NCBI GenBank assembly: GCA_017540265.1
Contig: JAFYBJ010000012.1
Location: 1 to 36,964 of the forward strand
Source of the DNA: Lachnospiraceae bacterium
Lineage (GTDB): Bacteria; Bacillota; Clostridia; Lachnospirales; Lachnospiraceae
Direction of reading: 5' to 3'
Length of the DNA: 36,964 nt
Part shown: positions 20,618-36,033 of the stretch, in pieces
Position numbering within the stretch: position 1 is the first letter of the stretch
Layout of the letters: each line of letters begins with the position of its first letter
Translations under genes and position numbers: made by a program
The notes under the pieces: generated by a model
Told to the model about the DNA's origin: nothing
Seen by the model: only the letters and a program-made list of their open reading frames with translations
Databases searched by the model: none

Positions 20618-21916
20618 CTAACTTTCTTCTGTACCGGTCTTTTTTCTCTTCTTTGTATTTTTATCGGATTGGATCGTGAGCGGTGCAGCTGTTTTCTCAA
20701 CCGCGGCTTTATTGATGATACATGTCTCAATATTCTCATTGGAAGGAATATCAAACATCACATCAAGCATGATATCCTCCATAACGGATCTTAAGCCCCT
20801 GGCGCCTATCTTAAGCTCTATAGCTTTATCAGCAATTGAATCCACGGCATCATCATCAAATTTAAGATCAACACCATCCATTTCAAAAAGCCTTCTGTAC
20901 TGCTTTATGAGCGCATTCTTAGGCTCCTTAAGTATCCTGATGAGCGCCTCTCTGTCAAGACCGTCAAGAGCCACCGTTACGGGAACACGTCCGATAAACT
21001 CAGGTATAAGTCCGAATTTTACAAGATCTCCGGGGGTAACCTGTGAAAAAAGCGCCGTACTCTCATTCTCATTTCCGGAGCGTATCTCCGCCTTAAAACC
21101 TATGGATTTTCTGTTAAGCCTCTCTCCTATTATCTTCTCGAGGCCGTCAAAAGCACCTCCGCAGATAAACAGGATATTTGATGTATCTATCTGTATAAGC
21201 TCCTGATGAGGGTGTTTTCTTCCGCCCTGGGGAGGAACGGAAGCCATGGTTCCTTCTATTATCTTAAGGAGAGCCTGCTGTACGCCTTCACCCGACACAT
21301 CTCTTGTGATGGAGACATTCTCGCCCTTTTTTGTGATCTTATCTATCTCATCGATGTATACGATACCGTTTTGTGCCTTTTCCACATTGTAATCGGCAGC
21401 CTGTATGAGTTTAAGGAGAATGTTTTCAACATCCTCTCCCACATATCCTGCTTCGGTCAGTGTGGTGGCATCAGCTATGGCAAAGGGAACTCCGATTATA
21501 CGGGCAAGAGTCTGTGCAAGATAGGTCTTTCCCGAACCGGTGGGGCCGATCATAAGAATATTGCTCTTCTGAAGCTCAGCCTTTTCCTTTGTAGGCGGTG
21601 CTACTATTCTCTTGTAATGATTATATACAGCTACAGCAAGGGATTTCTTTGCCGCATCCTGTCCTATAACATATTCATCCAGAAAGTTCTTGATCTCAGC
21701 CGGTTTTAAGAGATTGAATTCAAGGTCTCCGCCGGATACGGCCTCATCCCCGCTTTCCTCTTCTTCGTCGTTTATTATTCCGGAACAGATCTCAACGCAT
21801 TCATCGCAGATATAAATACCCTCGGGCCCTGCAATGAGACGACTTACCTGTCCCTGACTCTTACCGCAGAAAGAGCATCTTACCTTTCTGGGATCCATGG
21901 TATTCTTTGATGCCAT
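20618..21916 (-). CDS. clpX: ATP-dependent protease unfoldase subunit ClpX
   Basis: A hexameric AAA+ unfoldase that feeds substrates to ClpP. The 432 residues match the family. The N-terminal zinc-binding domain has Cys14, Cys17, Cys37 and Cys40. Then come Walker [13 protein letters not shown], Walker [11 protein letters not shown], the [11 protein letters not shown] pore region and the C-terminal AAA small domain with [15 protein letters not shown]. The ATG directly follows the clpP TAA stop; GAGGAG is about 12 bases upstream, inside clpP. A second ATG six codons in has no ribosome site. Confidence 0.98.
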
Positions 21917-22543
21917 TTACTTTTTATTCTCCTCGTCAGCTTCGGGACGTTTTGTGATAACCTCATCTATGATACCGTATGCCTTTGCTTCTTCAGCAGA
22001 CTTCCAGTTATCCCTGTCGGTATCATTCACAAGCTCCTCATATGTCCTGCCGCAATTCTCGGCCAAAAGCCTGTTCATTTTTTCTTTTGTCTTTATGATA
22101 TGCCTTGCAGCGATCTCGATCTCCGAAGCCTGGCCCTGTGTTCCGCCAAGAGGCTGATGGATCATTATCTCCGCATTGGGAAGGGCATATCTCTTGCCCT
22201 TTGCACCGCCCGCAAGAAGGAAAGCTCCCATGCTGGCAGCCATTCCTATGCAGTTTGTTGACACATCACACTTAATGAAATTCATGGTGTCATAGATAGC
22301 CATGCCGGCGCTTATGGAACCGCCGGGACTGTTTATATAAAGCTGTATATCCTTTTCGGGATCCTCAGCCTCAAGGAAAAGAAGCTGTGCCACAACAAGA
22401 TTTGATGTGACGTCATTTACCTCTCCTCCAAGGAATATGATCCTGTCCTTTAACAGCCTGGAATATATATCATAAGAACGTTCACCGCGGCTGGTCTGCT
22501 CGACCACCATAGGCACAAGTTCATTATAAATGGTATTGTTCAT
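21917..22543 (-). CDS. clpP: ATP-dependent Clp protease proteolytic subunit ClpP
   Basis: A tetradecameric serine protease that works with ClpX. The 208 residues match. The catalytic triad is visible: Ser104 in [11 protein letters not shown], His129 in [10 protein letters not shown] and Asp178 in TDRDNW. AAAGGAG lies six bases before the ATG. It sits between tig (12 bases upstream) and clpX (adjoining), the usual order in Clostridia. Confidence 0.98.
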
Positions 22544-22555
22544 AAAGATCTCCTT

Positions 22556-23836
22556 TTATTTCTCTACTGCATTTTCAATAACAAAATCCAATGCTTTCTT
22601 TATGATTATATCCTTCATGATGGATCTCTTATCCTGAGCCCTGAACATTTCCTTCACATCCTCGGGCTTCATGCCGTAGGAAGATGCCATCTCTTCTATT
22701 TCCTTATCGTACTCTTCTTCGGAAGCCTCCATGCCTTCAGCCTTTGCAACAGCTTCCATCACAAGCCTTGACTGTATCCTGCGGAGTGCCTGGGGCTTTG
22801 ACTGCTCTATCATAAGGCTGTCATTAAGACCGGTATACTCATAATACTGCTTTAAGGACATACCCTGCATCATAAGCTGTCTTGAGAACTGATCAAGTGA
22901 ATTCCTTGCAGCTGTCTCAACCATTGCATCGGGGATATCCATCTTTGCTTCCTCGATGAGCTTATCAAGGACTGCTGTTTCCTTCTTATCCTTTGCTTCT
23001 GCTTCTTTCTTCTCTGCAAGCTTCTTCTTTACATCTTCCTTATATTCATCAACACTGTCGAAACCTGCATCATCCGCAAAATCCTCATCAAGCGCAGGTA
23101 CTTCTTTTTCCTTTACTTCATGAAGCTTGCACTTAAACACTGCAGCCTTTCCCTTAAGATGCTCGGCATGATACTCCTCAGGGAAAGTTACATTAACATC
23201 AAATTCATCTCCTGCCTTGTGGCCTTCGATCTGCTCTTCAAAACCGGGAATGAAGCTGCCGGAGCCGAGTGTAAGAGGATAGTTTTCAGCCTTTCCTCCG
23301 TCAAATGCCTTGTCATCAACAAAACCCTCATAATCAATGATGGTCTGGTCTCCGTTCTTTGCTTCTCTTTCAACGGTCACCATTCTGGACTGCTCATCAC
23401 GTTCCTTATCGATCTGCTCGTTTACCTCATCATCGGTAACCTCTGTATCGATCTTTTCTATCTCTATGCCCTTATAATTGCCTATCTCAGCCTCGGGATT
23501 AAGTGCAACCTCTGCCGTAAAGATAAGGGGCTTGCCCTCTTCAACCTGTGTTATATCTATCTTGGGAGAAGATACTATTTCTTCCTCGCACTCATCAACT
23601 GCCTTATTCCATGCTTCTCCAAGGCAGTCATCAACAGCATCCTCATAAAAGATCTCGGGACCGTACATTTTCTCGATAAGCTTTTTAGGCGCCTTTCCTT
23701 TTCTGAAGCCGGGTATGCTGATACGTTTTTTATTCTTCTGATAAGCCCTTTCAATGGATCTTTCAAAATCTTCTGCGGGTACTTCCACTGTGATAACGGC
23801 CATGTTATGCTCTTTTTTTTCAACTGCGATACTCAT
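22556..23836 (-). CDS. tig: Trigger factor
   Basis: A ribosome-bound chaperone with peptidyl-prolyl isomerase activity that meets nascent chains at the exit tunnel. The 426 residues match. The ribosome-docking signature GFRKGKAP lies at 43-50. The FKBP-type domain (about 160-250) starts after a charged linker and includes NGDQTIIDYEGFVDDKAF and FIPGFEEQIEGHKAGDEFDV. The rest is the helical C-terminal chaperone domain. AGGAGG precedes the ATG by nine bases. It is the first gene of the tig-clpP-clpX transcript. Confidence 0.97.
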   Translation of the reverse strand: MSIAVEKKEHNMAVITVEVPAEDFERSIERAYQKNKKRISIPGFRKGKAPKKLIEKMYGPEIFYEDAVDDCLGEAWNKAVDECEEEIVSSPKIDITQVEEGKPLIFTAEVALNPEAEIGNYKGIEIEKIDTEVTDDEVNEQIDKERDEQSRMVTVEREAKNGDQTIIDYEGFVDDKAFDGGKAENYPLTLGSGSFIPGFEEQIEGHKAGDEFDVNVTFPEEYHAEHLKGKAAVFKCKLHEVKEKEVPALDEDFADDAGFDSVDEYKEDVKKKLAEKKEAEAKDKKETAVLDKLIEEAKMDIPDAMVETAARNSLDQFSRQLMMQGMSLKQYYEYTGLNDSLMIEQSKPQALRRIQSRLVMEAVAKAEGMEASEEEYDKEIEEMASSYGMKPEDVKEMFRAQDKRSIMKDIIIKKALDFVIENAVEK

Positions 23837-25304: not shown

Positions 25305-27188
25305 TCAGTTCATATCGCGGATATCATCCGCGTTTACGCATATCACCGGACGTATGCCTATGGCTTTATTTAACCTCCAGACCCGTAACCTGTTGTCAAC
25401 CAAAGCATGTCCTTCGAAATTTTCAGCGCATTTGTATGAATCATCCTGATCCACATGGCCTCGGGAACGCAGGCCGTAGCTTGAATGCGTAAGCCTGTCA
25501 TTCGCCAATGCCGCCACATATTGCGAGCAGGGAGCAAGTTCATTATCCTGCCCTGCCTTTGAGTTTCCCCTCATGAGCGAGATATCGGTATCAAAACCAT
25601 AACGTATCTCCTCAATTGAAGGCAGATAAACCTTATCATATGTAATACGTTCGGAAAGCGCGGAAACAGGTGTCGAAACCTTCGTCACCTGAAGCAGAGA
25701 CCTTTCCTCTTCCCTGAAAGTCCTGCGCACAAATACTGAATTCAGCCATTCACGTATCTTGCTCTTCTCCCAATATATCCCGGTCTTTATCCTTGATATT
25801 TCCTTATCATTCATCTTCAGATATTTCTGCTGGTCAAAGGCTCTGTAATCGATGATATATTCACTCTGAAGTGTCACTCTGTCGCCTCTGCTTGCAACGA
25901 CTCTCCATGAGAGCATATTAAATTTAAAATATCTGAATTCCGATATCTCAGTTTCCTGGCGTCCGCCGCGCATCATACTGAAAATATCCATTTCATTTTC
26001 TTTATTTCTGACAACCGGAAGCCTTAAATACCTCTCACCGCCTATGACCGCTACATCATCCTTATCATATTCGGCATAAATAAGATCGCTGGTAACGCTT
26101 GCACCCGTGATCTCGTTCATCGGATATTCTCCAAACCACAGCCTTCCGTCTCCGTCCCTTAAAACATGCGGTTCTAAAGAACCTGAAGACTGGACTCTCG
26201 CATCCTTTTCATCCGGATATACACCGTACAGATCCCTGTAAAGTTCATCTATCGACTGCTGTCTGTCCTGAGGCTTCATCGAAAGCCCCTTCATTATCGC
26301 TCCGGCAATCTTTTTATCTATCTGTATCGTATAATCTGCTATATCTATCAGTTCATCTTTTTCGTTTCTTTCAAAGGATGACTGGGGTATGTCGCCCGTC
26401 ATCATGCAGTAAAGAGTCGCACAGATACCGTATATATCCGTCCAGGGCCCCTGCTCGGAAACTTTTGAGAGCATCTGTTCAAGGGGCGCAAATCCCCACT
26501 TTCCGAGGAAAACCTGCTGGTTTGCAATTCCTATCTTTCTGGAACCGCCGAAATCAATAAGTTTTATGGTACCGTCTTCATCGAGCATTATATTATCCGG
26601 GCTTATATCGCGGTGAATAAGGCCTGATTTATGAAGACGTCCGAGTATGCTTATAACCGGTTCCATCAGCTTAAGCGCCTCATCCACCGGCAGCCACCCG
26701 TCATGTGAATCTATATATTTACGGAGATTGCCGCTTTCAAGATATTCCATGATAAGATAGCCGGTATTGTTCTGGTAGAACATATCCTTTACAGCCACTA
26801 TGCCGGGGAACTTTGAGAATTCCGCAAGTATCCTTGCTTCCCTTAAATAAGCCTTTGTCTCTTTTTCGTATTCCTCTGCATTTACGGCATCAAGAACAAG
26901 AACCGTATGTTCATCCGGCGCCCTGTCAACCATTTCGTCCGGAAAGAATTCCTTAACGGCAACACGATATTCAAGGAGCATGTCATAGCCGATGTAGGTT
27001 ATGCCATAGCCTCCTTTTCCGAGTATATTTCCTATGAGTATCTTATTATTTAAGATAGTGCCCGGTGCCAGTGCTTTCGACCAGGTATGCTGGCCCTTCT
27101 TCTCATATCCGCAAAACGGACAGATATCGGGCTCCTCACTGACGCGCATACAGCGCAGACAAATTTTATTTATTTCCGACTGCTCCAT
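25305..27188 (-). CDS. Cytosolic Ser/Thr protein kinase with zinc ribbon and DUF6273-type C-terminal domain
   Basis: A Hanks-type kinase. Residues 10-26 hold two CxxC pairs (C10/C13, C23/C26), a zinc ribbon. The kinase domain spans about 48-325: glycine loop GKGGYGIT (57-64), Lys79 in VAVKEFF, catalytic HRDISPDN from 192, DFG at 212-214, and GFAPLEQ in place of APE. No transmembrane helix or PASTA repeat follows, unlike PrkC/PknB. Instead residues about 340-627 form a soluble domain ending in SYGLRSRG...GIRPVICVN, which resembles DUF6273 (possible C-type-lectin-like fold). The GGGGGA before the ATG is close but adequate. It is co-oriented with the phosphatase (10-base gap) and bactofilin genes. 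Confidence 0.88.
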   Translation of the reverse strand: MEQSEINKICLRCMRVSEEPDICPFCGYEKKGQHTWSKALAPGTILNNKILIGNILGKGGYGITYIGYDMLLEYRVAVKEFFPDEMVDRAPDEHTVLVLDAVNAEEYEKETKAYLREARILAEFSKFPGIVAVKDMFYQNNTGYLIMEYLESGNLRKYIDSHDGWLPVDEALKLMEPVISILGRLHKSGLIHRDISPDNIMLDEDGTIKLIDFGGSRKIGIANQQVFLGKWGFAPLEQMLSKVSEQGPWTDIYGICATLYCMMTGDIPQSSFERNEKDELIDIADYTIQIDKKIAGAIMKGLSMKPQDRQQSIDELYRDLYGVYPDEKDARVQSSGSLEPHVLRDGDGRLWFGEYPMNEITGASVTSDLIYAEYDKDDVAVIGGERYLRLPVVRNKENEMDIFSMMRGGRQETEISEFRYFKFNMLSWRVVASRGDRVTLQSEYIIDYRAFDQQKYLKMNDKEISRIKTGIYWEKSKIREWLNSVFVRRTFREEERSLLQVTKVSTPVSALSERITYDKVYLPSIEEIRYGFDTDISLMRGNSKAGQDNELAPCSQYVAALANDRLTHSSYGLRSRGHVDQDDSYKCAENFEGHALVDNRLRVWRLNKAIGIRPVICVNADDIRDMN

Positions 27189-27290: not shown

Positions 27291-29588
27291 TCATTCTTCA
27301 TTGCCGTCTGCAAAAACATGACTGTAATAGTCATTATTAAGTGCCGACTTACAGAACTTCATTTTGTTCCTTACTATACCTTTAACAGCCTTAATATAAT
27401 CATCAGTAACCGTAAAAGAAGGGTCTGACGGTATAAACTGTCCCTTCGATGAAAGATATAAACCCTTATCCGTTTTCCAGTCATATCCGGAATTAAACAC
27501 CAGAGGAAGGGCATCCGAGAAAATATCCCTTCCCGGCAAAAGCCTTGAATCCCATTCCACATCAAAAAGATTACATAAGGTAGGAAGCATATCTATTGAA
27601 GACGACGGGTTATCCACAACCACAGGCTCATATCTTTCAAGCAAGCCGCACCATATTATTCCCCTGCTCTTATCCCTGCCCGGTAAGTTCGTAACATCAT
27701 AGCCGTATAGTTCCGAAAGATACGGGAGATTGCCTATGGTTCCGTCTTTATCCAGCCCATAAGGGAAATGATCGCCCGATATCACTATCACAGTATCGTC
27801 GGCTATCCCTGCCTCTTCAAGCTCTCCTATAAGATATTCCATGGCAAGATCCAGTTCCACATTCGATGCAAGATAAGCTCTCACACGTTCGGAATAATCA
27901 AGGCCTTTTTTCTCACACCAGGCATCAGTGAATTCCCTGTTCTTTTTTGCCATGGCATTGGTACTGTAGGTATAATCGCTGTGCCCGCTGACAGTCATGT
28001 AATATACGGAAAAAGGTTCTTTATCCATATAAAGAGGCAGTGTCCCCTTCATCATCTCCAGATCGCTTTCAGGCCAGACACGCTTTACATATTTTTCCAT
28101 ACCGTTGCCTACACCCATATACCCCTCACTGTAGCCAAGCTTCACATGGGTAAGATGTCTGTCATAATATGTGTAGGAATTATTATGGAAAGCATATCCT
28201 CTGTAACCTTCCTCTGCAAGCCTTGCACCTATATTGGTCCTTCCCTCGCTAACCGTTATCTGTCTCATGGATGCGCCGCCCGCCGTAGGCAGCATTCCGA
28301 ATAACAGCTGGTATTCACCGCCTGTTGTCCCTGCAGAAGCCTGCTGATAATAATCATTTAGATTTATGCCCTTATATGCCATCCTGTAAAGAGTGGGCGT
28401 CAGTTCCTCATCTATCACAAAACCGGAAAACGCCTCGGCACAGATAAGGATAAGGTTCTTTCCCTTGAAAAGACCTGTGTATGCATTTTTTGATGAAGGA
28501 ACCAGAGACTTCACATATTCATCGATCTCGCTTACAGCCTTTCCGTTATCCGGAAGCAAATCAAAATCAATATCCATTATATTCGGACCTGTCTTTTTTA
28601 ATACTCCGGGCGACGCAAGCAAAAGCAATGCTGCATTTGATGATGCATCTTTTATCATCCTATTATCAGATGCCTCCTCATATATTCCGGTAGGCGATAC
28701 AAGGGGTGATGCCTGCACAAAACCGGCGCCGGGAAACATTTTTATATTCTCATCAAATGTTGATACGCAGTTAAGGGAGGCTTCGTTATATATCTTATTC
28801 CCGGAAGTATCAGCAAGTATATTTGAGGAAGCATCAAAAGACATATCCGAAAAAGACACATCTTCAAAGGCGCCTTCCGTAATGTCACCGGCAATAAGTC
28901 TCCCGGCATCTGCAACAAATGATGTGATAAAACCGCAGGAATTTACAGCATTCTGAAAATTATATTCAACCCCCAGCACACTTCTGTAGAGTCCGAGCCC
29001 CAAAAGTATCGTGGTAAACATAAGCGAAGCCGAAACAGTGACCGCAGCCACCGGCGTATCATTGAAAAACCTTCTTTTAAAGCTCTCCTGATCATCATCA
29101 AAAGCTTCCCTTATATAGATCATCCTTTTGCCGTATACCGCCCACGCAAAGAAAGGGCACAAAAAAAGCATGATATGGGCAATGCCGTCAGCGCAGAATA
29201 TCAACGCGCGGATATCGCTTTGAAAATCCGAAAGCGCATCCGTAGCCCCGTTAAATATGGTATTTAAGTCATAACAGACCTTAAATTCCCTGAATATAAG
29301 GAATTCCACGATAAAGCCCAGGGAATTTATAAAATTAACAAAAAATCCGGCTATATAAGCTCCTTTTTTTGGAAGGAGCATAATTATAAAAGCCTCAACC
29401 GCACCTATGATAAAGGATGAAAACAAGGGATAAAGATAAGATGCCGCAGGCGGCTTTAAAAGTATAGCCTCCTTAAATACCATTTCACAGAAAAAAAACG
29501 ACACAGAAAAAAACATCGTCATAACGATGCTGTACACAAGGCCGTTTATCTTCCCGACTTTCCCTATTTTTTCACGTATATTTTCCAT
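27291..29588 (-). CDS. LtaS-like membrane phosphoglycerol transferase / sulfatase-fold protein
   Basis: A polytopic enzyme of the lipoteichoic acid synthase type. Five hydrophobic helices fall at about 18-38, 52-72, 78-100, 128-152 and 182-204, then a long extracellular linker, then the alkaline-phosphatase/sulfatase-fold domain from about 375. Active-site landmarks: LILICAEAF (metal Glu), AGTTGGEY with the nucleophile Thr near 421-422, YYMTVSGHSDY, and ISGDHFPYG. The linker (about 235-375) is unusually long and contains five copies of a [D/E][A/T]SxN motif. The start is ambiguous: the ATG at 29588 is used, and a TTG two codons upstream has GGGGAG 12 bases before it. A TAAAAT at 29627..29622 may be its -10. 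The substrate could be LTA or another glycerol-phosphate polymer. Confidence 0.85.
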   Translation of the reverse strand: MENIREKIGKVGKINGLVYSIVMTMFFSVSFFFCEMVFKEAILLKPPAASYLYPLFSSFIIGAVEAFIIMLLPKKGAYIAGFFVNFINSLGFIVEFLIFREFKVCYDLNTIFNGATDALSDFQSDIRALIFCADGIAHIMLFLCPFFAWAVYGKRMIYIREAFDDDQESFKRRFFNDTPVAAVTVSASLMFTTILLGLGLYRSVLGVEYNFQNAVNSCGFITSFVADAGRLIAGDITEGAFEDVSFSDMSFDASSNILADTSGNKIYNEASLNCVSTFDENIKMFPGAGFVQASPLVSPTGIYEEASDNRMIKDASSNAALLLLASPGVLKKTGPNIMDIDFDLLPDNGKAVSEIDEYVKSLVPSSKNAYTGLFKGKNLILICAEAFSGFVIDEELTPTLYRMAYKGINLNDYYQQASAGTTGGEYQLLFGMLPTAGGASMRQITVSEGRTNIGARLAEEGYRGYAFHNNSYTYYDRHLTHVKLGYSEGYMGVGNGMEKYVKRVWPESDLEMMKGTLPLYMDKEPFSVYYMTVSGHSDYTYSTNAMAKKNREFTDAWCEKKGLDYSERVRAYLASNVELDLAMEYLIGELEEAGIADDTVIVISGDHFPYGLDKDGTIGNLPYLSELYGYDVTNLPGRDKSRGIIWCGLLERYEPVVVDNPSSSIDMLPTLCNLFDVEWDSRLLPGRDIFSDALPLVFNSGYDWKTDKGLYLSSKGQFIPSDPSFTVTDDYIKAVKGIVRNKMKFCKSALNNDYYSHVFADGNEE

Positions 29589-29657
29589 ATCCAAACTTAA
29601 GGGTCACTCCCCGGCTACGCTATTTTAACACAAAAATCATAATGATAAAACGATTTT

Positions 29658-30686
29658 TCACCGGCCGGTCTCATCCCTCCATCTAAAGACTGAAGCCGCA
29701 GGATCCTTTTTCGTTATAAGCCCTTCCATGAAGGATTCCATCTCATCCGATATTTCCCGCGCATAGGAATAATACCCCTTATCTTCGGAAAACGGATACC
29801 ATATGAGAGGTTCATTAACGTAACGTTCCCGCATCTTCTTTAGATAATCGGCAGATATCCTGAAGCTTCCAACAGAATGATCCTTCACTCTTTTTATATC
29901 GATGCGCCTGCAGATTTCTTCAAACATGCCTGCATAGGCTTCTTTCCAGTTATTTATCCTTATCATCGGATCAAAACAAAATCGCACGGGGAAACCGGCA
30001 TTCATTGCAGCTTCCGCGGCTTTAATCCTTGATATAAGACCTGCGTTCTTTTTTTCATATGCCGATATCACTTCATCCGGAGAAAGTGAATATGCAAATA
30101 TGACATTGTCGGTCTTATCAAGCGCATCATAAACATCCACCCTGCCGCACTTTGTCCTTATCTCAACGGTCAGATCCCTGTGGCAGGAGGCGAACCCAGA
30201 CCATTTTTTAACATATCCGGTTATATCCTCAAGTCCCAAAAGATCCGTATCATAGGAAACACATAAATATACGGGATAAAGCTTTAATAAATCTTCTATC
30301 CTGGAAAAAATATCCTCTATATTCACGAATATGACTATGTTGGCAGAAGGATACATCCCTTTAAGATAGCAGTATGAACAGTCAAATATGCAGTTCATCA
30401 CGCAAGATGTATAAAAAAAATGACTGTTGCCAAAAGACTGGCACACCGGCGCGCCCTCGTAAACAAGACGTCCTCTTTTTCTGGCGATGATAATTTTTTT
30501 ATTATCCGCCTGAATACAAACATCCTGTCTGCTTCTGTTAAAGACATCCTTATAATGCCCTATGGGAATGATCTGCCTGTCCTTAAAAAAGTCTATGATC
30601 CGCTCTGTCTGCAGATGATAGGGATCACAGGCATCAAGCAGCTCTTCTTCAACATATATATGATCTGAATAAACCATGTCTTTCAC
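29658..30686 (-). CDS. Spore photoproduct lyase-family radical SAM protein
   Basis: A radical SAM enzyme related to SplB, which reverses the thymine dimer spore photoproduct. The 342 residues equal the length of SplB. The cluster motif is C99-x3-C103-x2-C106, reading CIFDCSYCYL, the SPL-type CxxxCxxC followed by YL. Tyr105 and Tyr107 flank the third Cys as in SPL, and Cys142 in LCVSYDTDLLGLEDIT aligns with the SPL hydrogen-donor Cys. Later segments AAMNAGFPVRFCFDPMI and WKEAYAGMFEEI also match SPL order. The GTG start follows AAAGAG by eight bases, and an ATG three codons on is possible. It begins one base after the helicase stop and closes a four-gene operon. No sporulation genes are nearby. 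Confidence 0.82.
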   Translation of the reverse strand: MKDMVYSDHIYVEEELLDACDPYHLQTERIIDFFKDRQIIPIGHYKDVFNRSRQDVCIQADNKKIIIARKRGRLVYEGAPVCQSFGNSHFFYTSCVMNCIFDCSYCYLKGMYPSANIVIFVNIEDIFSRIEDLLKLYPVYLCVSYDTDLLGLEDITGYVKKWSGFASCHRDLTVEIRTKCGRVDVYDALDKTDNVIFAYSLSPDEVISAYEKKNAGLISRIKAAEAAMNAGFPVRFCFDPMIRINNWKEAYAGMFEEICRRIDIKRVKDHSVGSFRISADYLKKMRERYVNEPLIWYPFSEDKGYYSYAREISDEMESFMEGLITKKDPAASVFRWRDETGR

Positions 30687-30687
30687 T

Positions 30688-32904
30688 TTAAAAACTCTTT
30701 ACGCACTCCTTCATGCCTGCCGTATCAAGCACTCCGTATGCAAACCCTTTCTTTACAAGCTCTTCCGGAAGCATGGTGTCATATTTGTTAAATACGGGAA
30801 CCTCTCCGGGAAATACAAGATCCATGGGATCATCAAGTTTTTCCGCCTCATTTGTAATGGTCTCATAGAACTCTTCTTCCGTTGCATTCATCGTAAACTG
30901 CATATAATACGGTCTCTGTGAAATAAATCCCTTTATTCCCAGAATATCTTTGCATTTTATCTTTATAAGTCTTTCAAGCGCAAGGAAAGCATAGCTTCCT
31001 ATCCAGGGAAAAAGACAGTACATCCTGTCCCCGAGATTTATAAGAGGTTTTGATGTAAGAGCCGAATGTCCTGCCAACACTCTTGCCTGTTTTAATCTGG
31101 CAGATGCATTTTTAAGCAGATAAGGATATATATCATTTTCTTCCAGAACCTGCTTCATCCTTTTTAAGATCTTTGTATTTATATCACCCGGCACATCTCC
31201 GAAATATGCAGGCACATTACCTTTAACGGGATTGCAGTAAACCTGGTGTCTTTTATGATCCACCTCCTCAACAACCCATACATTCCCCGCTATCGCTATC
31301 ATCTCACCGGCAGGGGGCGGCGCACAAAGCGTCCCTAACTCTTCCGAACCGCACCGTACCGAATATTCTTCATTATCCTGAAAAACGGCATAAAAACGGA
31401 AATTATTAACTATGCGTTCACCTTCAAGACCAATGATAAGGCCGCCCCTTTCAGTCTGTTCGATCTGAGAATTGTCAAGAAGATGATGCAGCAGACATTT
31501 AAAATCATCTGCAGATATATTTTTAAAATATGACAGATTTAATATCCTTCCTGCTAAAACTGCAGGTGTAAGTTCACCACCGGAAAAGAGTTCACTCATA
31601 GTCTGGTGATAAAGCAGGCTGTAAGGATATATATCTTTCCTTGGAGGCTCAACCCACCTTTCCTCAAGATATACCTGCACAAGGGCAATTCCCTGTATCA
31701 GTTTCCATGGTATACAGGCAGGAAGCAAAGCCCTCTGTTCCGCATGTTCCTCCCGCATAACAAACCACATTTCCGAGGGGGTACCGCGCCTCCCCGTCCT
31801 TCCCATCCTCTGCAGAAAAGAAGAAACCGTAAAAGGAGCATCTATCTGAAAAGCCCTTTCAAGACGTCCTATATCTATCCCCAGTTCCAGGGTGGAAGTG
31901 GTACAGACCGTCACCATACTGCCCTCTTCTTTTATAATATCTTCGGCGCTCAAACGATATGCAGTGGAAAGATTACCGTGATGGATAAGAAAACGATCCG
32001 GTTCATTTTTTGCTTCGCAGTACTGCCTGAGCTCATGAGTAACCGCTTCACATTCTTCTCTTGAATTTGAAAAGACAAGGCATTTTTTGCCCTCCGTATG
32101 CTCAAAAATATACCCAAGCCCGGGGTCAGATGCTTCGGGAGCCGCATCCGTAAGTTCATCATCAATTTCTTTTTCAGGCTCTTTATCTTCGGATGCCTGC
32201 GGTGCAGTCAGATAAAAATGTTCCATATTTATCCGCCAGTCAGCTCCGGGTGCCTTTATACGCGGGATAACGGTACCTCTTCCGGTACCGGCAGAAAGAT
32301 ATTCACCTACAGCGCGTATATCTCCGATGGTCGCAGAAAGCCCTATGCGTCTGGGATTTACCCCCGCTATACGGGAGAGCCGCTCTAACAGACAGAGCAT
32401 CTGTCCTCCTCTGTCGGATCTTAAAAAAGAATGGATCTCATCAATGACGACAAACTTAAGATCCCCGAATATCTCAGGTATCCGGGCATGTTTTCTCATG
32501 AGCATTGCCTCAAGTGATTCCGGAGTTATCTGAAGTATTCCCGAAGGATCCTTTAACATCTTCCGTTTAGTATCCGAGGAAACATCACCATGCCAGTGCC
32601 ATACGGGGATACCGGCCTCATCGCAAAGCACTTCAAGCCTTTCAAACTGGTCATTTATAAGGGCTTTTAAAGGAGCTATGTAAAGTACGCCCACAGAGGA
32701 AGGTGCTTCTTCTGAAATAAGCGTGAGCACGGGAAAAAAAGCCGCCTCTGTCTTGCCTGAAGCAGTGGATGCCGCAAGGAGTACATTTTCATCAGTTTCA
32801 AATATCGCCTCTCCTGCAGCCTGCTGTACGGCCCTTAGATTTTCCCAGCGGTTTCTGTATATAAAATCCTGAATAAACGGTGCGTAACGTGAATATATAT
32901 CCAT
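30688..32904 (-). CDS. Lhr/BrxHI-type superfamily 2 DNA helicase
   Basis: A DExH-box ATPase predicted to translocate on DNA. The motifs are complete: motif I ASTASGKT (45-52), Ia APLKALINDQ, Ib TPESLE, motif II DEIH (155-158), motif III SAT (190-192), motif V TSTLELGIDIG and motif VI QRMGRTGRRG (365-374). The region after about 400 carries winged-helix and Lhr-like C-terminal material. At 738 residues it is close to BrxHI of BREX type 2 rather than to the 1400-residue Lhr. Its ATG shares a base with the stop of the BrxD-like gene (TGATG), so the two are coupled. This helicase with a BrxD ATPase is a known BREX pairing, but the other BREX genes are absent. Confidence 0.88.
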   Translation of the reverse strand: MDIYSRYAPFIQDFIYRNRWENLRAVQQAAGEAIFETDENVLLAASTASGKTEAAFFPVLTLISEEAPSSVGVLYIAPLKALINDQFERLEVLCDEAGIPVWHWHGDVSSDTKRKMLKDPSGILQITPESLEAMLMRKHARIPEIFGDLKFVVIDEIHSFLRSDRGGQMLCLLERLSRIAGVNPRRIGLSATIGDIRAVGEYLSAGTGRGTVIPRIKAPGADWRINMEHFYLTAPQASEDKEPEKEIDDELTDAAPEASDPGLGYIFEHTEGKKCLVFSNSREECEAVTHELRQYCEAKNEPDRFLIHHGNLSTAYRLSAEDIIKEEGSMVTVCTTSTLELGIDIGRLERAFQIDAPFTVSSFLQRMGRTGRRGTPSEMWFVMREEHAEQRALLPACIPWKLIQGIALVQVYLEERWVEPPRKDIYPYSLLYHQTMSELFSGGELTPAVLAGRILNLSYFKNISADDFKCLLHHLLDNSQIEQTERGGLIIGLEGERIVNNFRFYAVFQDNEEYSVRCGSEELGTLCAPPPAGEMIAIAGNVWVVEEVDHKRHQVYCNPVKGNVPAYFGDVPGDINTKILKRMKQVLEENDIYPYLLKNASARLKQARVLAGHSALTSKPLINLGDRMYCLFPWIGSYAFLALERLIKIKCKDILGIKGFISQRPYYMQFTMNATEEEFYETITNEAEKLDDPMDLVFPGEVPVFNKYDTMLPEELVKKGFAYGVLDTAGMKECVKSF

Positions 32905-34244
32905 CAGAGTTTAAATTCCGCAAAACTTACTTCTGCATTATCTTTCTTTTCCAAAACAGTTTCCGCCGCAGCATATGAGAATTTATCCGACCCCAGTATC
33001 CCGGCCGGAGTCATCCCGGGATTCTGCATTATGATATCCAAAAGCTCAATAAAATCCCTTATTATCTCTCTGGGAGTTATCAGGGTATCCGCTCCCACTC
33101 TTCCGTATTCGATACGGATAAAATCCGCCAGATCTGCTTCGCCTATATTTCTTTCATAGCTATAAAGACCTGCATGGATATCGGCAAGCTTTTCCGAAAG
33201 CACTAACATTTCTTCGGCATTAAGCGGTTCAAGCTTTATCACAGGCGCAAGCAGATCCCTTAAACCTTCTTCGGAAAATCTTCCATCAGCAAGCCTGGAT
33301 CTTAAAGCCTCATAGCTGTATACGCCTCTTCTGTTATCTTCGATCGCCTGTGGCGTTCCGCACATCACTGTCCCAATATAATGGGCCTTACCCTGCATTG
33401 CATCATTGTACATGGTAAGTATCTTTTCGTAATTGTACTGACGGCTTATGCTGTTTGGTATCTTATAAATATTTACCAGCTCATCTATAAAGATAAGGAG
33501 TCCGGTGTATCCTGCTCTTCTGAAAAAAACGGCAAAAAGCTTTAAATACTCATACCAGTCGTTGTCCGATATGACCGATGTCACGGAAAGATCTTTCTTT
33601 GCTTCTGTCTTTGTGGGATATTCACCTTTAAGCCACTTTAAGCTGCAGGCTTTTAAATTCTCATCATCCTCTGCATAGCCCCTGTAATAAGCTGCAAGTA
33701 CTTTTCCAAAATCAAAACCGTGCGTAAGCTCATTTATCCCGCGGATCACTTCAAATATCTTTTTTTCAACTTCATTTGAAAAATCCGGAGAAGAATAATC
33801 CACACCTTCCGCAGCAGCCTCCGCCTGTATGCTCTGTATCCATTTATCAAGAATGAGCGTAAGAGCCGAGCCTTCGGGCTTTGCCTTCACGGAAATATTT
33901 CCCATCAGCTCCCTGTAAGTAGCAAGCCCCTCTCCCGAACTGCCGTGAAGCCGTCTTTCCGGTGAAAGATCGGCATCACAGACTATAAATCCCCTGTCCA
34001 TTGCATAATTTCTGATAGTCTGTAACAGAAATGATTTACCGGAACCATATTTTCCTTCAATAAATCTGAAGGAAGCTCCGCCTTCCCCCGTAAGCTCAAG
34101 ATCGTGGAGCAAAGCCTCCACTTCCCGTCTCCTGCCAACTGTAATATAAGGAAGGCCGATGCGGGGAACCACGCCGCCCTTTAGAGAGCTTATTATAGTC
34201 TGTGCAATTCTCCTCGGTATTTTTTTATTTTCCTGTTCCATCAT
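32904..34244 (-). CDS. BrxD-type P-loop ATPase (DUF2791)
   Basis: An ATP-binding protein of the BREX-associated BrxD family. The 446 residues have Walker A GKYGSGKS (64-71), Walker B LIFIDEL (about 250-256), and the DADLSPERRLHG stretch (90-101) common in DUF2791. The ELVNIYKIPNSISRQYNYEKI segment after Walker B and the C-terminal TPREIIRDFIELLDIMM-like helix fit STAND/Orc-like ATPases that bind DNA or a partner. Two consecutive ATGs follow GAGG. It starts 43 bases after the TerB protein and overlaps the helicase by one base. In BREX type 2 BrxD and BrxHI occur together; the function of the pair on its own is not established. Confidence 0.86.
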   Translation of the reverse strand: MMEQENKKIPRRIAQTIISSLKGGVVPRIGLPYITVGRRREVEALLHDLELTGEGGASFRFIEGKYGSGKSFLLQTIRNYAMDRGFIVCDADLSPERRLHGSSGEGLATYRELMGNISVKAKPEGSALTLILDKWIQSIQAEAAAEGVDYSSPDFSNEVEKKIFEVIRGINELTHGFDFGKVLAAYYRGYAEDDENLKACSLKWLKGEYPTKTEAKKDLSVTSVISDNDWYEYLKLFAVFFRRAGYTGLLIFIDELVNIYKIPNSISRQYNYEKILTMYNDAMQGKAHYIGTVMCGTPQAIEDNRRGVYSYEALRSRLADGRFSEEGLRDLLAPVIKLEPLNAEEMLVLSEKLADIHAGLYSYERNIGEADLADFIRIEYGRVGADTLITPREIIRDFIELLDIIMQNPGMTPAGILGSDKFSYAAAETVLEKKDNAEVSFAEFKL

Positions 34245-34287
34245 TAAACCTCGTATAAAACAGATCTATAGGATCCTTTGTTTATCT

Positions 34288-35922
34288 TCAGGATATCAGA
34301 TCACGGATATCTTCAGTATAATCCTCTACAGGTACTATACGTCCGTTATCCTCCTCCAGTGCCGTATCCCCGATGATATCAAGAAAGATCTCATTGATCT
34401 TTTCAAGCATAACCCCGGGCATGATATGTCTTTCCTTAAGGAAACTTCTTTCATCGCCGCCGTTTAGAATAAGCTTTAAGAATTCCCTTTCATCATCCGT
34501 AAAGGGACTGTCTGTTTTCTTTTCTGTTTCGGGATAAGTTACTGCAGGTGTTACCTGTATCTCTTCCATTTCCTCATCCGTCATTAGCGCTTCTTTAATG
34601 ATCTCCGCATCCGACCTTATGCCGGACAGCTTTGACATATCAATCTTTATGGGAGGATGAAGCTTTTTGTATTCCTTTTCCTTAAGTTCTTTTACCGCCC
34701 TCTTCATGCAGGCATAAAGATCTTCATCGGGCTCCTTATCCATAAGAGGCTTTCCTTCTCCATATGCTTCCCTGAAGGCATTTTCAAGCTTTACAATAAG
34801 GTATCTTAATCTCGGATTCTTCCCTGAAGCAGGAAAACCATGCATGAAAAACCTGTTGCCCTTCTTTTCAAGATATCTGACCTCATCTATCTTAAACAGA
34901 TCATGCTCATTTTTATCCGGATCATAAAATGGTACGTCACTGAATAAAAAAATCTCTGTTTTATCCGGTCTTCCGAAGCACCATTCAAGCAGGCTCATAT
35001 CTTCCCTTTTATTTATGAATAAAGCAGCATAGGTGCAGCCTGTAAGAAAAGCTTCCTTCATCTTTTCCGGATATTTGCAGTAGAATTTGGATTTTGACGG
35101 TGAATATCCGGATAATACTAAAGCAGTATCAAAGAAAATATCCATATCCGCTCCGGCCGGATTTAAAAGCAGTTCATACCTGCCATCCGATATTATCTCA
35201 TTAAAAGGGAATCTCTTTATGGCATCAGGCATGAAATGATAGATGGCATAATCCCTTCTCCAGTAATCCATATTGAATCTGAAGCTTGCATCCCTTTCCT
35301 TATATGCATCATATATCTCATCAAGAATATCCATCCCGTGTTCAGGATCTCTTACCTTAACGCCGAGTATCGTCTCATAGACATAGAGGAGTATATATGA
35401 GATGGAAACCTCGGGGTAAATACCATGCCTTAGATTTTCCCTTACGGAAAAATAAGACCTCAACTGCCGTATATCCATATTCGCGTATACGGGATTTTTG
35501 GACATAAAACCGACAGCAGGATATGAGTCCTTTACATCGGCATATTCAAAAGCCTGCCTTTTGAAATTTCTGTTTTTTTCTCCATAAGAAGTATTATTCC
35601 TGCAGTCTTTCCAGAGTGAGCATATTTCTGCAGGAGTATCATTATCAGGTTCTCCGTATCTTGAATAAGATCGTCGTGCATTAAACCTTTTTCTTCCCCA
35701 TACAGAGCCGCCATACGTATTATTCTCTTTAGGAGCAACATAATCCCACCAGCCTTCATCCGAAGATCTTTCATCTACATGTTTTTCAAGATCACCGGCA
35801 GCGTGTATGTTTTTTTCAGCCTTCTCCCTCTCTGCGATCTCTCCTGCAGTCTCAAAGGGAAAACGTTTGCCGAAATTTATGGGTGTATCGGTATAAAAAA
35901 TTTTACTTTTATCTTTTGGCAT
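34288..35922 (-). CDS. TerB_N / TerB_C domain protein
   Basis: A 544-residue soluble protein with no membrane helix. The N-terminal 130 residues are charged and low in complexity. Residues about 140-260 fit TerB_N: NPVYANMDIRQLRSYFSVRENLRHG-type core with the YILLYVYETI helix (quoted in parts). The last 75 residues fit TerB_C: FTDDEREFLKLIL, then LEKINEIFLDIIGDTALEED and a closing acidic tail. The central TerB metal-binding domain is not seen. TerB_N/TerB_C proteins have been linked by comparative genomics to tellurite-resistance and DNA-processing operons. The ATG has no ribosome site and lies 8 bases after a TATAAT, so it may be leaderless. It is the first gene of the operon with the BrxD ATPase, helicase and SPL. 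Confidence 0.78.
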   Translation of the reverse strand: MPKDKSKIFYTDTPINFGKRFPFETAGEIAEREKAEKNIHAAGDLEKHVDERSSDEGWWDYVAPKENNTYGGSVWGRKRFNARRSYSRYGEPDNDTPAEICSLWKDCRNNTSYGEKNRNFKRQAFEYADVKDSYPAVGFMSKNPVYANMDIRQLRSYFSVRENLRHGIYPEVSISYILLYVYETILGVKVRDPEHGMDILDEIYDAYKERDASFRFNMDYWRRDYAIYHFMPDAIKRFPFNEIISDGRYELLLNPAGADMDIFFDTALVLSGYSPSKSKFYCKYPEKMKEAFLTGCTYAALFINKREDMSLLEWCFGRPDKTEIFLFSDVPFYDPDKNEHDLFKIDEVRYLEKKGNRFFMHGFPASGKNPRLRYLIVKLENAFREAYGEGKPLMDKEPDEDLYACMKRAVKELKEKEYKKLHPPIKIDMSKLSGIRSDAEIIKEALMTDEEMEEIQVTPAVTYPETEKKTDSPFTDDEREFLKLILNGGDERSFLKERHIMPGVMLEKINEIFLDIIGDTALEEDNGRIVPVEDYTEDIRDLIS

Positions 35923-35930
35923 ACTGTTCA

Positions 35931-35959
35931 ATTATAGAACATCCGTTCAAATAATACAA
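35931..35959 (-). promoter_or_regulatory. Promoter of the TerB-BrxD-helicase-SPL operon
   Basis: A perfect TATAAT (35936..35931) on the minus strand ends eight bases before the first gene's ATG. The -35 at the best 17-base spacing is TTGTAT (35959..35954), matching only TTG. Normal -10 to start distance would place transcription at or within two bases of the ATG, which would give a leaderless message. Confidence 0.6.
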
Positions 35960-35983
35960 GCAACCGCCCGACGTTCTCATCAT

Positions 35984-36013
35984 AAAAAAAAGGACCACGG
36001 AAAACCGTGATCC
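35984..36013 (-). terminator. Rho-independent terminator of tpiA
   Basis: A nine-base-pair stem with one G-T wobble (GGATCACGG with CCGTGGTCC on the minus strand), a four-T loop and a following run of eight T. It lies about 20 bases beyond the tpiA stop and insulates the TerB operon from it. Confidence 0.9.
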
Positions 36014-36033
36014 CTTTGAATTAAAGCTGTTCT

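Follow-up and report, generated by a model that had tools for sequence, protein, structure and literature searches.

The window analysed here, a stretch of 36,964 nucleotides of Lachnospiraceae DNA, carries downstream of tpiA three genes resembling phage defence genes and, immediately behind them, a gene for a radical SAM enzyme similar to spore photoproduct lyase (SPL). This arrangement raises the question whether the four genes form a single functional unit, or whether the fourth gene belongs to a different biological context and has come to lie next to the others by chance. The ORF coordinates bear out the layout given in the earlier note, with four co-directional ORFs on the minus strand separated by intergenic gaps of 43, -1 and 1 bases:

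35988..36017, minus strand: terminator-like hairpin after tpiA, 13 pairs and a T tail, consensus match only
34288..35931, minus strand: sngA-like gene (TerB_N and TerB_C), 547 amino acids, Shango gene 1
32904..34244, minus strand: sngB, P-loop ATPase gene, 446 amino acids
30688..32904, minus strand: sngC, SF2 helicase gene, 738 amino acids
29658..30686, minus strand: SPL-like radical SAM gene, 342 amino acids, 3' of sngC
27291-29594: next ORF past the SPL-like gene, Pfam Sulfatase

The predicted hairpin on the tpiA side (36017-35988) is likely the upstream boundary of the four-gene unit. A weak promoter-like match (9/12, ATGAGA-18-TATTAT, 35980-35951) is located 5' of the sngA-like gene, in a region with 5 such matches compared to a mean of 15.5 after shuffling. 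The 63-base interval separating the SPL-like gene from the next ORF has no listed terminator-like site, and transcription may thus continue into the Sulfatase ORF.

The first three genes are a Shango operon

Shango is described as an anti-phage system of three genes encoding a TerB protein, an ATPase and a helicase, and its reported effect is modest, a 10- to 100-fold reduction in EOP for many but not all of the phages tested (PMC10250203). PADLOC assigned the first three window proteins, in this order, to SngA (189.8 bits, 3.8e-56), SngB (611.8 bits, 1.9e-184) and SngC (899.1 bits, 6.7e-271). The earlier note had read the ATPase and the helicase as the BrxD/BrxHI pair of BREX type 2, an assignment that does not withstand these scores, as the BrxD and BrxHI profiles reached 177 and 428.7 bits, respectively, and the NCBIfam model BREX_BrxD gave 176.9 bits for the ATPase against a cut-off of 350. 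That a TerB_N/TerB_C protein heads the operon was, on the other hand, correct: both domains scored above the Pfam cut-offs in the SngA-like protein (TerB_N 63.4 bits, TerB_C 62.6 bits); Pfam detected no central TerB domain in it. Pfam matches above cut-off were also obtained for the BrxC_BrxD ATPase domain in SngB (550.6 bits) and for DEAD and Helicase_C among the operon proteins, and motif scans revealed a Walker A motif (GKYGSGKS) at residue 64 and a Walker-B-like motif (LIFIDE) at residue 250 of SngB, as well as GKT, DEIH, SAT and QRMGRTGR in SngC.

All three components of Shango (sngA-sngB-sngC; PADLOC PDLC03958-03960) are therefore present in the window, contiguous, in A-B-C order (gaps of 43 and -1 bases) and with intact motifs; the locus differs from the known system in the SPL-like gene located 1 base past sngC, for which no match was found in 44 other SngB regions. 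Judged from sequence, the trio makes up an entire Shango operon (sngABC) with a predicted anti-phage role, situated downstream of tpiA. SngC and SngB would act on phage DNA as helicase and ATPase, and SngA might serve as a sensor or regulator. The proposal of a stand-alone unit hence holds insofar as its first three genes are linked to phage defence; this unit already has a name, however, and its conserved membership does not extend to the SPL-like gene.

Usual neighbourhood of the SPL-like genes

A scan of genome contigs recovered 411 SPL-like relatives, of which the best 80 were examined together with up to 8 kb, often less, on each side. A nucleosidase-related gene is located directly upstream of the SPL-like gene in 79 of these best 80 loci, the exception having 123 bases of upstream sequence, and 68 of them have an SDR gene no more than 2 kb downstream. 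One of the 12 loci without SDR gene has 174 bases of downstream sequence; 11 of 79 loci thus lack the SDR gene despite sufficient room, which shows that the cluster of nucleosidase-type, SPL-like and SDR genes is not invariant. The queries for the upstream and the SDR gene included proteins of genomes recurring among the 80 loci (L029, L032), whose matches are self-matches.

The upstream partner can be placed only remotely. Pfam PNP_UDP_1 scored above cut-off in one of four partner proteins scanned, the NCBIfam nucleosidase models matched this same protein below their cut-offs, and the best relatives with solved structures were found at an E value of 0.008. Using the best-preserved query, 67 partner ORFs were extracted from the 80 loci, and four of more than 359 amino acids were left out; among the 63 aligned ORFs, [DE]ME[AGS] is present in 59 and K-x-[VI]-S-D in 49, counts in which eroded partners are under-represented because of this mode of extraction. 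We take these motifs to resemble the active site of MTA/SAH nucleosidases. In Fusobacterium vincentii, nucleosidase-type and SPL-like parts are found in a single ORF of 623 amino acids, followed by an SDR gene, and in 3 of the 80 loci the frame matching the partner continues into the SPL-like gene. A recurrent partnership with nucleosidase-type and SDR genes is thus a feature of this SPL-like subfamily in the Lachnospiraceae and their relatives, and it includes a fusion in Fusobacterium.

Within the genus of the window, the partner is eroded. Two loci (L018, L019) lack the nucleosidase-type motif, in two others (L020, L021) only the C-terminal domain of the partner, identified by eye, is left, fused to the SPL-like protein, and the window no longer has the partner gene. 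Outside this family, the motif is likewise missing in one homologue (L023). In the rest of the window assembly, which is 73% complete, the best match to the partner had an E value of 0.012 and the best SDR match was 31% identical, and neither gene was recognised. At this level of completeness of the metagenome-assembled genome, the assembly may have missed the nucleosidase partner or another copy of the SPL-like gene.

Shango and SPL-like genes in other genomes

Among the best 80 of 411 SPL-like loci, none contains a Shango match above 100 bits in the available flanks; in one of them (L080) a helicase-type match of 44 bits is located about 7 kb from the SPL-like gene. Conversely, no SPL-like match was found in any of the 44 other SngB regions fetched. 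SngB and SngC occur together in 33 of these regions (adjacent in 28, as contiguous A-B-C in 22), at least 500 bases past SngC are available in 31 of the 33, and the gene following sngC differs from region to region. The remaining 11 regions have no SngC match above 200 bits, some of them at contig ends, and may be non-Shango.

At the level of the order, SngB was detected at E <= 0.001 in 65 of 392 genomes. Eleven weak cases (below about 210 bits) were dropped and a genome of the same genus as the window (G004) was added to the other 54, resulting in a test set of 55 genomes, which was searched with the SPL-like alignment; true SPLs are found weakly by it. An SPL-like or SPL match is present in 16 of the 55, and only in the window genome are the two genes together. 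In one of the 15 others (G269) a single contig carries both genes at a distance of 2.6 Mb; in 14 they are located on different contigs. In 10 of the 15, at least 500 bases past SngC are visible and the region is free of SPL-like matches; in the other 5 this stretch is not visible. In the phylum sample, SngB was found at E <= 1e-40 in 25 of 398 genomes, two of which were weak and were dropped, leaving the window genome and 22 others. Fourteen of these 23, the window genome and 13 others, have an SPL match; of the 13, seven carry it on the SngB contig at a distance of at least about 259 kb, and six on a different contig.

Taken together, SngB lies beside an SPL or SPL-like gene in none of the 28 other sampled genomes that have both, although a contig break could hide such an arrangement in 11 of the 28. 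A second genome of the window species was not found. The earlier note had stated that an SPL gene adjacent in this genome only would be a chance neighbour; with 0 of 28 genomes, 0 of 44 SngB regions and 0 of 80 SPL-like loci, this is the situation encountered in our samples, and a conserved linkage of Shango and SPL in the order and phylum samples, the SngB regions and the best 80 of 411 SPL-like loci is rejected. The accompanying suggestion that the ATPase and the helicase deliver the lyase to DNA receives no comparative support.

We also considered carriage of the combination by phages or plasmids. Relatives of the window SPL-like protein are found in two phage-labelled records, one of which yields SDR, weak nucleosidase-type and SPL-like matches but none to Shango. 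Six records of the plasmid collection match the protein, one of them, a 2.1-Mb Fusobacterium record, with more than 80% query coverage. Shango, nucleosidase-type and SDR matches are absent from all 80 IMG/VR loci analysed (80 of 162). This candidate explanation was dismissed, there being no combined record among those examined. A fixed insertion site after tpiA was dismissed as well: the gene after tpiA varies within the genus (13 regions, three of which end within 1 kb after tpiA), so that no empty site can be named. Among the literature matches listed, we found no link between Shango and radical SAM enzymes; one paper names a radical SAM gene as the flank of a hotspot in P. aeruginosa where Shango is frequently found.

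Origin of the fourth gene

We consider it highly probable that the locus consists of a complete Shango operon and an SPL-like gene that was relocated directly behind sngC in the window lineage. The SPL-like gene is most likely found behind Shango by chance in one genome, and relocation within the genus fits best. The tree joins the window protein to the NK4A179 homologue (99/71, not a starred fork), which is part of an ordinary cluster of nucleosidase-type, SPL-like and SDR genes. The window protein retains 82 of 86 columns conserved at 95% or more, and its four changes are all conservative, which suggests a functional copy; from the alignment, the gene appears to be still under constraint. 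Its four departures compare with a median of 1 and are exceeded by 3 of the other 80 proteins, and its end branch in the tree has a length of 0.77 compared to a median of 0.2; a homologue with an in-frame stop (L088) entered the conservation counts but not the tree. The departures and the long branch could reflect a relaxed or altered function, and in these respects the window protein is not quite a typical member of its family.

The 1-base gap and the conservation still seen in the protein are also compatible with a different, in our view unlikely, history in which Shango recruited the SPL-like enzyme as a co-translated fourth component specific to this lineage. SngB and SngC would then load on damaged or foreign DNA, which the radical SAM enzyme would modify or repair, so that either phage DNA would be attacked or damage to host DNA undone. 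The location on the same strand, the SPL fold along the whole length of the protein, its fairly long branch, as might result from an altered function, and nucleosidase-type and SDR neighbours that are neither adjacent nor recognised elsewhere in the assembly are all in line with recruitment. However, the two genes are together in none of the other genomes, SngB regions and SPL-like loci (best 80 of 411) sampled, and in G004, from the same genus, Shango and the SPL-like gene are located on separate contigs, sngC being followed by other genes and the SPL-like gene having other neighbours. 

If the gene was relocated, as we prefer to think, its position 1 base past sngC would place it on the transcript of Shango, and yet its product would act independently.

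The SPL-like protein and its relation to spore photoproduct lyase

The fourth protein had been described as an SPL-like radical SAM enzyme, which applies to the family and not to SPL proper: its Pfam SPL score of 75.8 bits is well above the cut-off of 27, but for the SPL equivalog TIGR04070 it reaches 82.7 bits where 400 are required. The sequence CIFDCSYC at residues 99-106 provides the CxxxCxxC motif (C99, C103, C106), which is found in all of the best 80 of 411 homologues. An AlphaFold model (pLDDT 91.4), for which the alignment input consisted of 49 of the 80 SPL-like loci and the window protein, was matched by Foldseek over its whole length to SPL chains of G. thermodenitrificans at ranks 1 to 6 (TM 0.80-0.83; 19-20% identity in the structural alignment), and the next match was much weaker (TM 0.40). 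In addition, tyrosines flank the third cysteine, the second of which is Tyr in 74 of the 80 homologues and Phe in the other 6.

The hydrogen-donor cysteine of SPL is C141 in B. subtilis, and its replacement in C141A is reported to inactivate B. subtilis SPL in spores (PMC3742179). The corresponding residue is numbered C140 in Gt. Both single-sequence and profile alignment place Tyr145 of the window protein at this position, which is occupied by Tyr in 78 and by Phe in 2 of the 80 homologues; Cys142, three residues before Tyr145, is Cys in 79 of the 80. Compared with SplB (PDB 4FHC and related structures), the window protein thus shares the fold, the CxxxCxxC motif and the tyrosines beside the third cysteine, but it lacks the donor cysteine, falls far under the family cut-offs for a true SPL and has other gene neighbours. 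It is therefore very improbable that the gene encodes a genuine spore photoproduct lyase, a DNA repair enzyme merely co-expressed with the defence genes, despite the isolated position of the SPL chains in the fold search and the retention of both tyrosines; a relative is also found in Fusobacterium, a genus not known to form spores.

The SPL-like enzyme has probably retained its ancestral radical chemistry, with a nucleotide-like substrate. SAM would probably be consumed rather than regenerated, as suggested by the alignment, in which the radical-relay cysteine of SPL is absent, together with the usual neighbour, which remotely resembles nucleosidases cleaving SAM by-products.

Relation to BREX

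In line with the earlier note, PglX, PglZ, PglW and BrxC were not found among the window proteins scanned, a selection of the window ORFs comprising the four operon proteins and 15 distinct others (four and 10 others each with PADLOC and Pfam), and a PglZ domain has no match in the 73%-complete assembly either. In a helicase phylogeny, SngC groups with BrxHI, DruE and DpdJ in a potentially distinct clade of SF2 (PMC12278908), a placement that would account for the earlier reading of the locus as BREX. A degraded BREX type 2 locus with only brxD and brxHI remaining can hardly account for the locus and was rejected on profile scores, for although this clade speaks in its favour and the matches to the BrxD and BrxHI profiles show shared ancestry, the Shango models outscore these profiles by a factor of two to three, the ATPase stays under the BREX_BrxD cut-off, SngA is present, PglZ is lacking as stated above, and the contiguous A-B-C order recurs in half (22 of 44) of the SngB regions of the order.

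Conclusions

The trio of TerB protein, ATPase and helicase is now placed in Shango, a known system. Its association with the photoproduct lyase homologue appears to be that of a neighbour in one genome, which gives no basis for inferring the mechanism of Shango; if recruitment were true after all, Shango defence would involve radical chemistry on DNA opened by the helicase. The partnership of the SPL-like subfamily, a by-product of this analysis, may outweigh the identification of Shango in worth. Its recurrence with nucleosidase-type and SDR genes suggests a radical SAM pathway outside spores that has yet to be characterised, in which the nucleosidase-type partner might serve to remove 5'-deoxyadenosine, an idea that is open to experimental testing.

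The nucleosidase-type / SPL-like / SDR cluster

A cluster of a nucleosidase-type gene, the gene for the spore photoproduct lyase-like (SPL-like) radical SAM protein and an SDR gene recurs, mostly in Lachnospiraceae, among the best 80 (L029-L108) of 411 loci with relatives of the window protein, and in Fusobacterium vincentii (L184:5101-7901) the nucleosidase-type and SPL-like parts form a single fused ORF. Within the window's genus, the nucleosidase-type partner lacks the DMEA motif at two loci (L018, L019), which we read as loss, and at two others (L020, L021) it is cut down to its C-terminal domain and fused to the SPL-like protein. No paper describing this cluster was among the matches listed in a literature search.

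Shango genes and their surroundings

One further window gene, at 25305-27188, encodes a Ser/Thr protein kinase that carries a DUF6273 domain. Two PADLOC kinase models, mad6 and PD-T4-6, match it, and these matches probably reflect general kinase homology. Shango-type genes have trigger factor, clpP and clpX as neighbours, no more than about 10 kb away, both in the window (20618-23836) and in another genome, G038 (L026:2486-13976), though on differing sides; this nearness is possibly a coincidence.

In contrast to the contiguous A-B-C order of Shango, SngB and SngC are encoded on opposite strands in G269 (L186) and G300 (L195), with SngC not directly following SngB. For the SngB-like ATPases of L210, L213-L215, L219-L221 and L223-L225, no recognisable SngC was found within the sequence stretch examined, and some of them may belong to a different system.

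The Shango genes of G004, a genome of the window's genus (L024:6904-17830), show identities of 72% (SngB), 76% (SngC) and 35% (SngA). A SpoU methylase gene lies upstream of them, and rimP-like and nusA-like genes, named by eye, lie downstream. The interval from tpiA to rimP-nusA varies in gene content in several relatives and is a possible insertion hotspot.
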